Source of the DNA: Martelella sp. AD-3
GTDB taxonomy: Bacteria > Pseudomonadota > Alphaproteobacteria > Rhizobiales > Rhizobiaceae
Length of the DNA stretch: 64,000 bases
Assembly (NCBI RefSeq): GCF_001578105.1
Contig: NZ_CP014275.1
Coordinates: 806,001 to 870,000 of the forward strand
Direction: 5' to 3'
In this document: piece after piece, positions 18,621 through 26,139 of the stretch
Numbering within the stretch: the first letter of the stretch is position 1
Layout of the letters: every line of letters starts with the position of its first letter
The notes under the pieces: model-generated
Seen by the model: only the letters and a program-made list of their open reading frames with translations
Databases searched by the model: none
Told to the model about the DNA's origin: nothing
Program-made: the position numbers and the translations under genes

Positions 18621-18817
18621 CTCTCGGCATCTCGAAAAAAAAGTGTGACAAGAGCAGATGTCTTAGCGGGCGGTTGCGCAAAAGCCAATGGCTGAAGCCG
18701 TTTCCCGCTCACGCAAATGTGACGCTCCAGTGAGGGCAAATACATGCGTCCGACTTGAAACCGACGCATCCTCCCCAAGGTCAGAGGTGTTGAATTTTCA
18801 TTCCAGGAGGACGATTG

Positions 18818-19813
18818 ATGACTGAGAATACTGGTATCAACCGCCGTCGTCTCATGGCCGGCGCGGGTCTGGCCGCCATCGCCACGCCCTTCGTGTCCGG
18901 CGCGACAAACGCCATGGCGCAGAACACGGAAGGCGACCGCATGAAGATGGTCGATGCGCCGCCAAGCGACAGTTTTGATCTCGGCGATTTCAAGCTGCTC
19001 GTCGTCGAGGACGGCACACGGCTGATGGAAAATCCCGGCGAGACCTTCGGGACCGGACAGGATCCGGAAACGGTTGCTGCGCTGCTTGAGGAAAACTTCC
19101 TGCCGCCGGACAGGCTGGTCAACGGCTTTGCGCCGGTGCTTGTCGATACCGGCAATGAGACCGTGCTGTTCGACACCGGCATGGGCCCGGCGGGTCGTTC
19201 CTGGGGCGCGGGGCGTCTGCGTGAAGGGCTGATTGCCAATGGCTACCAGCCGGAGGACATCGACATCGTCGTCATCACCCACATGCATGGCGACCACATC
19301 AACGGGCTGATGGAGGAAGACGGCCCCGCCTTTCCCAATGCCCGCTATGTCTTCGGCGAGAAGGAATATGCTTTCTGGAGCGATGATGCGCGCATGGGCA
19401 CGCCCGCCGAAGGCGGCCACCAGAGCGTGACTAAGCTGGTGACGCCGCTTGTCGATCAGGCGACCTTCATCGGCGGCGGTGATGAAGTCGTGCCCGGCAT
19501 CACGGCGATGGACGCCTTCGGCCACACGCCCGGCCATCTGATCTTCATGCTCGAATCGAGTGACGAAAGGCTGCTGCTGACGGCGGATACGGCGAATCAG
19601 TACGTGCTCTCGCTGCAGCGCCCGGACTGGCATGTGCGCTTCGACATGGACAAGGAGATGGCTGCCGCGACCCGCAGGCAGGTCTTCGACATGGTTGCCG
19701 CCGAGCGGATTCCCTTCCTCGGCTATCACATGCCGTTTCCCGCCGTCGGCTATGTGGAAAAGGTCGGAGACGGCTACAAATTCATGCCGAAGACGTACCA
19801 GTTCAAGGTTTGA
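18818..19813 (+). CDS. Tat-exported MBL-fold metallo-hydrolase
   Basis: A 331-residue metallo-beta-lactamase-fold enzyme. The N terminus has a twin-arginine signal, NRRRLMAGAGLAAIATPF, with cleavage near NAMA-QN. The zinc-binding HMHGDH motif lies near residue 150 and a later His in AFGHTPGHL completes the site. Substrates of such proteins range from lactones to aryl sulfates; I cannot choose. AGGAGG precedes ATG 18818. It is divergent from the MFS exporter, which raises the possibility of a shared detoxification role, but that is inference. Confidence 0.87.
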   Translation: MTENTGINRRRLMAGAGLAAIATPFVSGATNAMAQNTEGDRMKMVDAPPSDSFDLGDFKLLVVEDGTRLMENPGETFGTGQDPETVAALLEENFLPPDRLVNGFAPVLVDTGNETVLFDTGMGPAGRSWGAGRLREGLIANGYQPEDIDIVVITHMHGDHINGLMEEDGPAFPNARYVFGEKEYAFWSDDARMGTPAEGGHQSVTKLVTPLVDQATFIGGGDEVVPGITAMDAFGHTPGHLIFMLESSDERLLLTADTANQYVLSLQRPDWHVRFDMDKEMAAATRRQVFDMVAAERIPFLGYHMPFPAVGYVEKVGDGYKFMPKTYQFKV

Positions 19814-22597: not shown

Positions 22598-23416
22598 TCA
22601 GCTCTGGCTTTGCGACTGGCTCTGGCTGGCAACAGAGAGCTTGACCGCAAGGCTTTCCCTGCCGCCGCCGATGGTCATGCCGGAAACGGGGGCTGCATCC
22701 TTGTAGTCGAGGCCGCATGCGACGCGCACATAACGCTCGTCCGGGCAGACCTTGTTGGCGGCGTCGAAACCGACCCAGCCGAGGCCTTCCAGATAGCATT
22801 CCGCCCAGGCATGGCTTGCCGTCTGGTTCTCGAGGTCCGGCATATAGAGGTAGCCGGAGACATAACGTGCCGGCACCTTCATCTTGCGGGCTGAGGCAAT
22901 CACGATATGGGCATAATCCTGGCAGACGCCGGATTTGGTCTCCAGTGCCTCGCCGGCCGTGGTCGCGACGCTGGTCGCGCCCGGCTTGAAGGTCATGGTC
23001 TTGTGCAGCCGTTCCATCAGGTTGTGGAGCCTGGCCAGGTCGGAATCGCCTTCGAGTTTCTCGACCAGCTTTTCGATGGCCTTGTCCGCTTGCGTCAGCG
23101 GCGTCTGGCGCAGGAACAGCCAGAGCGGGATGTCCGGTGAAGCCGGGCCGAAAATGCCGTCCGTGTCGCGGGTTTCCACCGTCCCCGAGGCGATCAGACG
23201 AACGCTCGGGTGTTCCCCTTCGACGGAGACGAGCCGGACGTGGTTCTCGTACTGGTCGGTGTAGGCGACCTCGCTCTTGGCGCCCTCGATGGTCACGGCC
23301 CAGTCGCGGATTGTCTGGCCGGCCGAATCGACCGGCGTCAGCCGCAGCCGCTGCAGCGAGAACTGAACCGGGGTCTCGTAACTGTATTCAGTCACATGGT
23401 TGATGTTCAAAAGCAT
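22598..23416 (-). CDS. Transglutaminase-like protein of the ATP-grasp/alpha-E operon
   Basis: A 272-residue protein with an N-terminal beta domain (LLNINHVTEYSYETPVQFS) and a transglutaminase/protease core. The triad is visible: Cys in KSGVCQDYAHI, His in ASHAWAECY and Asp in GWVGFDAAN. The family includes papain-fold peptidases and transferases, and no substrate is known. The C terminus is an unusual Ser-Gln run (nine residues alternating S and Q). GAAGGG precedes ATG 23416. It is the third gene of the operon, 31 bases after the alpha-E gene. Confidence 0.9.
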   Translation of the reverse strand: MLLNINHVTEYSYETPVQFSLQRLRLTPVDSAGQTIRDWAVTIEGAKSEVAYTDQYENHVRLVSVEGEHPSVRLIASGTVETRDTDGIFGPASPDIPLWLFLRQTPLTQADKAIEKLVEKLEGDSDLARLHNLMERLHKTMTFKPGATSVATTAGEALETKSGVCQDYAHIVIASARKMKVPARYVSGYLYMPDLENQTASHAWAECYLEGLGWVGFDAANKVCPDERYVRVACGLDYKDAAPVSGMTIGGGRESLAVKLSVASQSQSQSQS

Positions 23417-23447
23417 CGCGTTTGTCCCTTCACGCCTTTCCGCACCC

Positions 23448-24389
23448 TCATGCGTAGAAGCGATACCCCTCGCTGATTTGCTGGCTGAGCTTGTTGTTGC
23501 GGCTGACGAAGTCCTCGAGGAACTGGTGCAGGCCGTTGTCCATGATCGTCTTGATCTTCTGGCTGCGAAGCGTGCTGCGGATGGCATGCGCGGTGTCGTG
23601 CGCCTCCAGCCGCTCGCCGTAATCGGCGGCGAGATAGTCCAGATTGAGCACGATCTTCTCGTAGGAATAGGCGAGCGAGCGCGGCAATTGCACGTCGAGG
23701 ATCAGGAATTCGGCAATCTGGCTCGGGCGGTACTCGCCGTTATGCACCCAGCCATAGGCCCGGTGTGCCGAGACCGAACGCAGGATCGATTCCCACTGCA
23801 GATTGTCGAGCGAGGTGCCAACGTGGTGCACGGAGGGCAACAGCACGTAATATTTCACGTCGAGAATGCGGCTGGTATTGTCCGCGCGCTCGATGAACGT
23901 GCCGATATGGGCGAAGTTGTAGATCTCGTTGCGCAGCATCGAGCCGTGGAACGTGCCGCGGATCAGCGCCGTCTTGTGCTTGACCAGGTCGATCGCCTTG
24001 GGCAGGTCGGCCGGCCTCAGCTTGGCCGAAAGCAGGCTGCGGCTTTCGATCCAGCACTCATTGGTGGCTTCCCATGTCTCGCGCGTCAGCGCGGTGCGCA
24101 CCAGGCGGGCATTGTTGCGGCCCGCGTCGATGCAGGAGACGACGCTCGAAGGATTGCGGCGGTCACGCAACAGGAAGTCGATGGCGTTGTCGGCCGTCAG
24201 CTTGCTGTGCACCTCGAAATAGGCTTCCTGGACGCCGGCGCTCTGCAGGATGCCGTCCCAGTCATCCGCGCCGTTGGAGCGCGTCAGCGCCACGCGCTGG
24301 CCGGCGTCGATCAGGCGGGCGATGTTCTCGGCGCGCTCGAAATAGCGGAACATCCAGAACAGGCCGTTTGCGGTTTTTCCAAGCATCAT
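23448..24389 (-). CDS. Alpha-E domain protein (DUF403)
   Basis: A 313-residue all-helical protein of the alpha-E family, starting MMLGKTANGLFWMFRYFERAEN. This arginine- and glutamate-rich opening is conserved in the family. Other conserved stretches include RGTFHGSMLRNEIYNF and FIERADNTSRILDVKYY. The biochemical role is unknown, but the family almost always occurs with the circularly permuted ATP-grasp protein. The upstream gene's stop and this start overlap as TGATG, with GGAGGA just before, indicating tight coupling. Confidence 0.9.
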   Translation of the reverse strand: MMLGKTANGLFWMFRYFERAENIARLIDAGQRVALTRSNGADDWDGILQSAGVQEAYFEVHSKLTADNAIDFLLRDRRNPSSVVSCIDAGRNNARLVRTALTRETWEATNECWIESRSLLSAKLRPADLPKAIDLVKHKTALIRGTFHGSMLRNEIYNFAHIGTFIERADNTSRILDVKYYVLLPSVHHVGTSLDNLQWESILRSVSAHRAYGWVHNGEYRPSQIAEFLILDVQLPRSLAYSYEKIVLNLDYLAADYGERLEAHDTAHAIRSTLRSQKIKTIMDNGLHQFLEDFVSRNNKLSQQISEGYRFYA

Positions 24390-25810
24390 CAGTCCTCCAG
24401 CACCCATGTATCCTTGGTTCCGCCGCCCTGGCTGGAATTGACCACCAGGGAGCCTTCCTTCAACGCAACGCGGGTGAGGCCGCCGGGCATGATCCGCACG
24501 CGGTCCGACACCAGCACATAGGGTCTGAGATCGACATGGCGCGGCGCGATGCCCTTCTTGACGAGGATCGGGACGGTGGAGAGCGAAAGCGTCGGCTGGG
24601 CGATGTAGTTCGCGGGCCTTGCGCGAAGCTTGGCGGTGAAGTCTTCCAGTTCCTTCCTGCTGGCCGCCGGGCCGACCAGCATGCCGTAGCCGCCGGAGCC
24701 ATGCACTTCCTTGACCACGAGGTCCGCAATATTGTCGAGCACATAAGCGAGGCTTTCCGGCTCCGAACAGCGCCAGGTCGGCACATTTTCCAGAAGCGGC
24801 TTCTGGCCGGTGTAGAATTCGACGATTTCCGGCATGTAGGAATAGATCGCCTTGTCATCGGCAATGCCGGTGCCCGGCGCGTTGGCGATGGTGACATGGC
24901 CGGCGCGGTAGACATCCATGATGCCCGGAATGCCGAGCGCGGAGTCCGGGCGGAAGGTCAGCGGGTCGAGGAAATCATCATCGACTCGGCGATAGATGAC
25001 ATCGATCGCCTCATAGCCGCGCGTGGTGCGCATCTTCACCTTGCCGTCGATCACGCGCAGGTCCTGACCCTCGACCAGTTCCACGCCCATCATGTCGGCA
25101 AGGAAGGAGTGCTCGTAATAGGCCGAATTATAGATGCCGGGCGTCAGAACGCCGACGCGCGGGCGGGTGCCGGAGAAACCGGGAGGGGCGAGCGTTGCAA
25201 GGCTCTGGCGCAGAAGCTGGGGATAGTCCTCCACGCGGCGCACCCGGTTCTTGTAGAACAGTTCGGGAAACATCTGCATCATGGTTTCCCGGTTTTCCAG
25301 CATGTAGGAAACGCCGGAGGGTGTGCGGGCATTGTCTTCCAGCACGTAGAACTGGTCCTCGCCCGTGCGCACGATGTCGGTGCCGACAATGTGGGTGTAG
25401 ACCCCGCCGGGCGGCTCGAAGCCGATCATCTGCGGCAGGAAGGCATCGTTTTCCTCGATCAGCCGGCGCGGCAGGCGGCCCGCCTTGATGATCTCCTGCT
25501 TGTGGTAGATGTCTTTCAGGAAGGCGTTCAGCGCAATCACGCGCTGTTCGATGCCGGCGGCGAGCTTGCGCCATTCCCGGCCGGAAATGATGCGCGGCAC
25601 GATGTCGAAGGGGATCAGCTTTTCCGAACTGTCGGCATGGCCGTAAACGGCGAAGGTGATGCCGGTCTTGCGGAAAATGTTTTCCGCATCGCGCGATTTC
25701 GCGATCAGGGATGCGGGGTTCTGCTGACTGTACCAGTCATAGTAGTCCTTGTAAGGGTCGCGCGGCTGGTTGTCCGCGGTCATCATTTCATCGAATGGCA
25801 AAGCGTTCAT
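24389..25810 (-). CDS. Circularly permuted ATP-grasp protein
   Basis: A 473-residue protein of the circularly permuted ATP-grasp type 2 family (DUF404/DUF407). Conserved regions include GREWRKLAAGIEQRVIALN, FYVLEDNARTPSGVSYMLEN, YRRVDDDFLDPL, IVKEVHGSGGYGMLVGP-like KEVHGSGGYGML, and the C-terminal SSQGGGTKDTWVLED. ATP-grasp enzymes generally ligate a carboxylate to an amine through an acyl-phosphate, so peptide-bond formation is a reasonable inference. Substrates are unknown. First gene of the operon; a 9-bp inverted repeat lies upstream. Confidence 0.92.
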   Translation of the reverse strand: MNALPFDEMMTADNQPRDPYKDYYDWYSQQNPASLIAKSRDAENIFRKTGITFAVYGHADSSEKLIPFDIVPRIISGREWRKLAAGIEQRVIALNAFLKDIYHKQEIIKAGRLPRRLIEENDAFLPQMIGFEPPGGVYTHIVGTDIVRTGEDQFYVLEDNARTPSGVSYMLENRETMMQMFPELFYKNRVRRVEDYPQLLRQSLATLAPPGFSGTRPRVGVLTPGIYNSAYYEHSFLADMMGVELVEGQDLRVIDGKVKMRTTRGYEAIDVIYRRVDDDFLDPLTFRPDSALGIPGIMDVYRAGHVTIANAPGTGIADDKAIYSYMPEIVEFYTGQKPLLENVPTWRCSEPESLAYVLDNIADLVVKEVHGSGGYGMLVGPAASRKELEDFTAKLRARPANYIAQPTLSLSTVPILVKKGIAPRHVDLRPYVLVSDRVRIMPGGLTRVALKEGSLVVNSSQGGGTKDTWVLED

Positions 25811-26139
25811 CCCCCGATTGTTATTATCGCATATCAATACAACATCTGAAGTAATGCAAGGACCATGCCTTCCTGCGGAACGCGGCATTTGCATGGTCCA
25901 ATACAACCAACGCGCTGAAATTCGGGCAGTTCCCCTCAAAATGCGCCGAATAAATGGGCAGGCGGCTCGTCGCGCTTGCGCATCTTCGGCGCGAGCGCTG
26001 CAGAGGCGCGTGCTCGGGCACGACAGAGACGTCAACAGATTTTGATATCGAACCTTTGGCCAGACCCTTCGGCCGACTTGCCGCCGTTGCATTCTGCGCT
26101 AGAATCTTTCCTTGAACACGCAGCGGAGTGGATCAGCGC
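25811..26139. other. 329-bp divergent intergenic region, ATP-grasp / lytic transglycosylase
   Basis: I see no gene here. The segment from 25811 to 25950 is less GC-rich than the flanks and contains the inverted repeat described separately. The right half is GC-rich with short self-complementary stretches (GCGCGAGCGCTGC, GTGCTCGGGCAC). A promoter for the transglycosylase gene probably lies in 26040-26115 but no clear hexamer pair stands out. Confidence 0.5.
25860..25899. promoter_or_regulatory. Inverted repeat upstream of the ATP-grasp operon
   Basis: GGACCATGC (25860-25868) and GCATGGTCC (25891-25899) form a perfect 9-bp inverted repeat with a 22-base spacer, 50-90 bases upstream of the ATP-grasp start. 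It could be an operator with two half-sites three helical turns apart or a 5'-leader hairpin. No function is established. Confidence 0.45.

Follow-up and report, generated by a model that had tools for sequence, protein, structure and literature searches.

An Anbu-less derivative of the Anbu operon in Martelella sp. AD-3, with a glutamine tail on its transglutaminase

What might a compact ATP-grasp/alpha-E/transglutaminase operon do when Anbu, the proteasome-like peptidase with which such genes have been linked, is not beside it? The question is raised by a 64,000-nucleotide stretch of the Martelella sp. AD-3 genome (contig NZ_CP014275.1, positions 806,001 to 870,000; henceforth the window, in whose coordinates features are given), in which three minus-strand genes form a single apparent operon. 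An earlier reading of this DNA from the sequence alone (the original prediction) described them as perhaps encoding a ligase plus amidase pair acting on an unknown peptide. Here we report that the trio is a derivative of a known system and not an unknown system, and that the earlier reading missed three things: the trio reflects a secondary loss of Anbu, a second, paralogous system is present in the same genome, and the transglutaminase-like enzyme (TGase) carries a conserved glutamine tail. The features concerned are as follows.

24389..25810, minus strand: ATP-grasp ligase-like protein, circularly permuted, 473 amino acids; first gene of the unit; PF14403 and PF04174
23448..24389, minus strand: alpha-E protein, 313 amino acids; PF04168; two ER motifs, ERAENIAR (residues 18-25) and ERADNTSR (residues 167-174)
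22598..23416, minus strand: transglutaminase-like cysteine enzyme (TGase), 272 amino acids; PF08379 plus PF01841; triad C165/H202/D218
22601..22627, minus strand: C-terminal tail of the TGase, SQSQSQSQS, in mixed codons (AGC/TCG, CAG/CAA)
25811..25870, minus strand: conserved upstream promoter-like module, before the ATP-grasp start

The predicted gene identities were borne out by Pfam scans, run on mechanical open reading frames slightly longer than the called genes: the ATP-grasp protein matched PF14403 (E 2.2e-165) and PF04174 (E 1e-144), the alpha-E protein PF04168 (E 1.6e-89) and the TGase PF08379 (E 2e-20) and PF01841 (E 8.1e-21). The genes are also as tightly coupled as had been claimed, with a 1-nt overlap between the ATP-grasp stop and the alpha-E start (TGATG) and a 31-bp gap between alpha-E and TGase. 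Their order was identical in all 110 loci compared (103 of them distinct by ATP-grasp and alpha-E sequence; the second copy of the window, L011, was omitted, and an order flag in 14 of 111 rows reflects reverse-strand storage only). The window ATP-grasp protein is 97% identical to that of M. limonii. Because the five window neighbours that we checked recur beside the trio in only 0-2 of 80 named loci, we take the trio itself to be the unit.

The absence of an Anbu gene next to the trio, already remarked upon in the original prediction, extends to the whole genome: the single PF00227 match is HslV, encoded beside HslU, and a query with the Anbu N-terminus found no match in the genome. The suggested link to Anbu nevertheless held, as the relatives of the trio are Anbu operons. 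Specifically, Anbu lies directly downstream in 20/20 same-family loci (sampled from 70 available, with ATP-grasp proteins 61-80% identical to that of the window), whereas it follows the trio in none of the 77 window-type loci whose sequence continues for 1 kb or more. Among 121 sampled same-family genomes, 100 had ATP-grasp and 71 had Anbu, the latter always together with ATP-grasp. Anbu was missing from 27 of the 32 genomes whose ATP-grasp is at least 79% identical to that of the window but present in 66 of the 68 below this value (in one of the two exceptions, G077, the contig ends soon after the locus). On a tree of 86 ATP-grasp sequences, built by a quick search without bootstrap and with named loci scored by Anbu adjacency only, 50 Anbu-less rows formed one clade (Shimodaira-Hasegawa-like approximate likelihood ratio test, 96) placed among Anbu-bearing rows. 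None of the 27 genomes sampled from the window clade has Anbu, an absence that apparently goes back to one loss, and these comparisons place the trio as a descendant of a four-gene Anbu operon that lost Anbu. It shares with published Anbu operons (PMC5666114, PMC6376114) the same families in the same order, co-oriented and tightly spaced, and differs from them in lacking Anbu and in a TGase end that has expanded into an (SQ)n tail. As there is no Anbu beside the trio or elsewhere in the genome, we class it as a derivative of the Anbu operon and not as an Anbu operon.

Other relatives have undergone the opposite loss. In eight genomes Anbu lies about 1.1-1.2 kb after ATP-grasp, which by coordinates leaves room for alpha-E only; four of these loci were read, and they form one clade in the ATP-grasp tree (support 99). 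No TGase orthologue was found in these eight genomes or in G027 (best matches at E of at least 8e-26, against 1.9e-180, 6.8e-87 and 2e-79 for three controls). All nine retain paralogous TGases, which could substitute for the one lost. Judged from gene content, TGase and Anbu are thus separately dispensable. In a wider survey of 299 Pseudomonadota genomes, ATP-grasp (threshold E<=1e-90) was found in 172 and Anbu in 120; 118 genomes had both, 54 only ATP-grasp and 2 only Anbu. Some of the 172, at about 50% identity, adjoin a large TGase (frames of 1116-1142 amino acids) and could be of the DUF2126 type described below. Since alpha-E adjoins ATP-grasp in 39 of the 40 loci read (which include 33 from 32 of the 54 Anbu-less genomes), and since some relatives kept Anbu but lost the TGase, we regard ATP-grasp and alpha-E as the near-constant core of the system by sequence.

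Within Rhizobiaceae, a TGase match stands beside ATP-grasp in 29/29 Anbu-less genomes (that of G004 being a distant form). In the 32 Anbu-less Pseudomonadota genomes read, the TGase is downstream in 21 and a Bact_transglu_N protein lies upstream or elsewhere in 9, while G300 and G389 fell outside the TGase test and the other 22 of the 54 outside the reading. A Bact_transglu_N protein was not found in G199 and G273, both of which have Anbu. We met no counter-example to the suggestion that loss of the TGase and loss of Anbu never coincide, although this is a partial test with few loss events in Rhizobiaceae. Five apparently core-only loci (G169, G183, G187, G360 and G385) were rejected, as each has a TGase within about 0.7 kb upstream. 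As separate observations, G333 splits the system between two loci (L225, L224), one with ATP-grasp and alpha-E and the other with ATP-grasp and TGase without alpha-E, and two Anbu-less loci (L215, L227) have a zinc metallopeptidase-like protein beside the core, downstream of alpha-E on the opposite strand, the copy in L227 belonging to PF15887.

The second system of the Martelella genome (L008:5555-12421; C1:1195554-1202420) adjoins genes for glycogen branching enzyme and phosphorylase. It encodes a 1110-amino-acid TGase-DUF2126 putative amidoligase, an 851-amino-acid ATP-grasp/alpha-E fusion and a 298-amino-acid TGase. Like the trio, it combines ATP-grasp, alpha-E and a Bact_transglu_N TGase; unlike the trio, it has ATP-grasp and alpha-E fused, includes the extra TGase-DUF2126 protein, has an ATP-grasp only 31% identical to that of the trio, and neither of its two TGases ends in glutamine. 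A further adjacent pair of transglutaminase-like proteins was seen at L010:2193-4059 (C1:2.01 Mb), with no ATP-grasp match there and no N-terminal Bact_transglu domain detected in one member.

We then considered what the proteins might do. Loss of catalytic residues in most orthologues, which the original prediction named as a refutation, was not seen: each of 18 ATP-grasp positions checked is conserved in 149-150 of 150 rows (136 distinct), as are alpha-E residues E18, R19, R25, E167 and R174 in 150/150. The Cys-His-Asp triad, correctly called intact in the original prediction, comprises Cys165, His202 and Asp218 and is kept across 115 full TGases (Cys 115/115, His and Asp 114/115 each), the sole exception being a truncated 170-amino-acid frame. 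The predicted structure of the ATP-grasp protein has the whole-chain fold of a ligase like glutathione synthetase or glutathionylspermidine synthetase (GspS); the model matches both of these and YgiC/YjfC, and, among solved structures of known reaction, those closest to it in fold are glutathione synthetase, GspS, trypanothione synthetase and Cp1B of E-64 synthesis. The alpha-E model was confidently predicted (predicted local distance difference test score, 92), and a Foldseek search of the PDB with it gave no match at E<=0.001. The proposed ligase plus amidase pair therefore agrees with the closest solved folds, while its chemistry is something that we infer.

By analogy with these enzymes, ATP-grasp and alpha-E would form the core ligase, with alpha-E as the steady partner. 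The ATP-grasp protein would activate a peptide carboxylate as an acyl phosphate and then join it to an amine, the reaction type of glutathione synthetase, GspS and YgiC/YjfC, and the TGase-fold cysteine enzyme would cut or exchange the amide, as does the cysteine amidase of GspS. The trio differs from the glutathionylspermidine synthetase/amidase of E. coli (gss) and from trypanothione synthetase in that its hydrolase has a TGase fold and is a separate protein, and in the addition of alpha-E. YgiC and YjfC are only 10-11% identical to the window ATP-grasp, and we know of no alpha-E or TGase partners for them. For the Methylobacillus flagellatus structure 3n6x, named 'putative glutathionylspermidine synthase', we are likewise aware of no functional test. 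In the literature, which is cited here from excerpts of the papers, the E. coli YgiC and YjfC proteins are called peptidylpolyamine synthetases (PMC12568646).

A possible substrate is suggested by the C-terminus of the TGase. Where Anbu is adjacent, glutamine occurs within the last two residues in 69/69 TGases (30 from Rhizobiaceae and 39 from the wider survey) and in 62 of them it ends the protein. In the Anbu-less window clade it is within the last two residues in all 83 distinct TGases (exactly last in 10), and every one of these has at least three xQ dipeptides (i.e., any residue followed by glutamine) in its last 16 residues. Such repeats occur in 0/30 Anbu-bearing Rhizobiaceae TGases, and a plain ..TVEQ ends the TGases of the closest relatives that bear Anbu (L164-L166). 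These counts exclude a truncated TGase (L084) and a distant form (L170), and score L286 as Anbu-adjacent because the survey places Anbu there, the local profile having missed it. Among controls, a final glutamine was found in 0/150 and 1/80 ATP-grasp proteins, 2/34 and 2/39 Anbu proteins, 1/12 paralogous TGases and 13/472 other long reading frames (mechanical frames of at least 250 amino acids, longest non-overlapping, and not verified genes), and xQ repeats in 0/472 of the latter. Alpha-E is a mixed control, ending in glutamine in 32/150 (as ..YRFYQ) and 8/79. A further 120 gamma-type TGases, an independent set whose named members are mostly Pseudomonas and kin, included 116 with glutamine in the last two residues and 46 with xQ repeats.

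Codons were mixed in the seven repeats inspected, so the tail is no plain DNA repeat, and the repeat state needs at least 8 changes on a 74-row tree. Some loci bear an SQ or Q tail on alpha-E instead (L167, which lost the TGase and kept Anbu, as well as L215 and L227), and L214, L219 and L220 have poly-Q on alpha-E and TGases without glutamine; a mutual exclusivity of the two kinds of tail was considered and dropped (p 0.21). The TGase tail was not found in the literature searched, which did not cover Iyer et al. 2009, and the phrase 'C-terminal glutamine' is absent from the excerpts of the Anbu papers searched. Our tentative preference, to which we assign somewhat less than an even chance, is that the ligase forms amides at peptide C-termini and the cysteine hydrolase cleaves them, the TGase C-terminal glutamine, or (SQ)n in the window clade, being the likeliest built-in substrate or docking handle.

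Several observations weigh against this proposal. A profile comparison of the ATP-grasp protein with E. coli GspS gave nothing; the conserved positions are candidate ATP/Mg and substrate residues, and an E-x-N correspondence between the two proteins is putative. An alpha-E Q tail is absent in three of the four TGase-less loci read (L131, L134, L136), and outside the window clade 12 of 26 TGases without adjacent Anbu have no glutamine in the last two residues. The correlation between Anbu and glutamine (Fisher p 2.4e-6, phylogeny ignored) was not significant in phylogenetic pairs (six pairs: two the same way, none opposite, four with no difference). Unmatched median divergence ratios are higher in the Anbu-less clade, both for TGase/ATP-grasp (3.28 vs 2.31) and for alpha-E/ATP-grasp (2.31 vs 1.84); the Anbu-less pairs, however, have diverged less, and few differences underlie some of the ratios. 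When pairs were matched for ATP-grasp divergence (0.12-0.20; 162 pairs without and 159 with Anbu, non-independent), alpha-E differs by 0.299 without Anbu vs 0.303 with it and TGase by 0.410 vs 0.406; from these sequences, the trio does not clearly appear to have relaxed after Anbu was lost. In published assays, a homologous ATP-grasp released phosphate from ATP, which the authors could not distinguish from plain hydrolysis, and it was not stimulated by glutamine, glutamate or Anbu, Anbu had no peptidase activity and the operon proteins formed no detected complex (PMC6376114). The TGase in that interaction test bore a C-terminal FLAG tag (PMC6376114), which would mask any terminal glutamine, so the negative result may not be final. 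No new form of Anbu appeared when it was co-expressed with the operon proteins (PMC5666114), and the literature searched names no substrate for the system.

Other explanations of the trio account for parts of this evidence. Rather unlikely, in our judgement, is that its product is a free metabolite, a small peptide or an amide (e.g., a peptide-amine conjugate), the glutamine tail being only an assembly or stability feature. The nearest solved folds do belong to metabolite or small-peptide ligases, and a metagenomic clone with ATP-grasp, alpha-E, transglutaminase and protease genes (jj117) is listed with anti-nematode activity in a review table that cites a thesis (PMC7764037), but a metabolite would leave unexplained the invariant glutamine of Anbu-adjacent TGases, the (xQ)n repeats in separate lineages and the alpha-E tails, and none of the five neighbours checked is a conserved biosynthetic gene. 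An encoded tail could also act as a tag in the manner of Pup (PMC7947786), ATP-grasp and alpha-E ligating it to amines or proteins and TGase, with Anbu where present, removing or digesting it, so that the window clade cycles without Anbu. Both systems bring together an ATP-dependent ligase and a protein with glutamine at its C-terminus (for the trio, mostly not the final residue in the window clade, and within the last two in only 14/26 other loci without adjacent Anbu), joined in Anbu operons by a proteasome homologue; we nevertheless consider this improbable, and here the glutamine sits on a 272-amino-acid enzyme and not on a small tag, the ligase is an ATP-grasp and not the GS-fold PafA, and Anbu is absent from the window. 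A role in protein turnover, in which the TGase tail docks on Anbu as HslU tails do on HslV while ATP-grasp and TGase tag or untag proteins, has a similarly small chance. Fuchs et al. favour degradation over peptide synthesis (PMC5666114), superposition indicated that an HslU tail could fit an Anbu groove (PMC6376114), and the terminal glutamine is universal beside Anbu and found in 14/26 otherwise outside the window clade. The window clade would then have kept tagging and use another protease, yet it is in this Anbu-less clade that xQ repeats are universal, the correlation is lost under phylogenetic pairing, and the pull-downs found no complex, albeit with the tagged TGase.

Nitrogen metabolism offers a further reading, in which the TGase truly crosslinks or deamidates Gln-rich tails, releasing ammonia under nitrogen starvation, with ATP-grasp in a separate step. 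Ammonia release has been proposed (PMC6376114), related genes respond to nitrogen limitation (PMC5491218, PMC5666114), a P. putida nitrogen link is cited in PMC5666114, and in marine metagenomes DUF403/404/407 go together with urea metabolism (PMC3597751). A related B. cenocepacia cluster is NtrC/sigma54-dependent (PMC5491218); as it includes a large TGase, it looks closer to the second, DUF2126-type system. An association study in S. meliloti pointed to regulatory DNA of a COG2308 gene (PMC8407117) that could be part of one system or the other. The window clade has a conserved module upstream of ATP-grasp, promoter-like by its sequence (consensus GCAYGSTTCTTGCATTGC..TTGTAYTCAAATG..GGGG; in the window GGCATGGTCCTTGCATT..TTGTATTGATATG..GGGGG), with CTTGCA[TA]T in 102 of 107 Anbu-less loci, followed in 98 by a loose TTGTAY-like box (the Anbu-bearing L031, L033 and L036 were excluded). 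The module resembles sigma54 sites, and a GGCATGGTCCTTGCA site lies 45-60 bp before the ATP-grasp start, but a sigma54 promoter was rejected since GG at -25/-24 occurs in only 4/102 loci (the window among them), and we therefore do not claim nitrogen control of the operon. The sigma54 consensus showed no enrichment, with 12 matches in the window against 10.9 expected and 32 in the genome against 76 for a reversed control. In addition, a few glutamines per protein would be a poor source of ammonia, and ATP-grasp is the most conserved member, which is unexpected for a side role. We consider this reading very unlikely. Elsewhere in the genome, a sigma54-like CGGCACGAAACTTGCT (L148; C1:3024611-3024628) is found about 50 bp upstream of a 286-amino-acid frame that we take to resemble ureD (urease accessory). 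Within the window, positions 18815-19813 encode a metallo-beta-lactamase fold protein whose nearest model, AidB lactonase, scores far below its cut-off (137.5 vs 360 bits).

For amide formation and cleavage at peptide C-termini, the glutamine tail provides a concrete candidate substrate or docking site, and this is the step most worth testing. Because the window clade has the trio but not the proteasome-like member, the question of what the trio does can be separated from that of what Anbu does.

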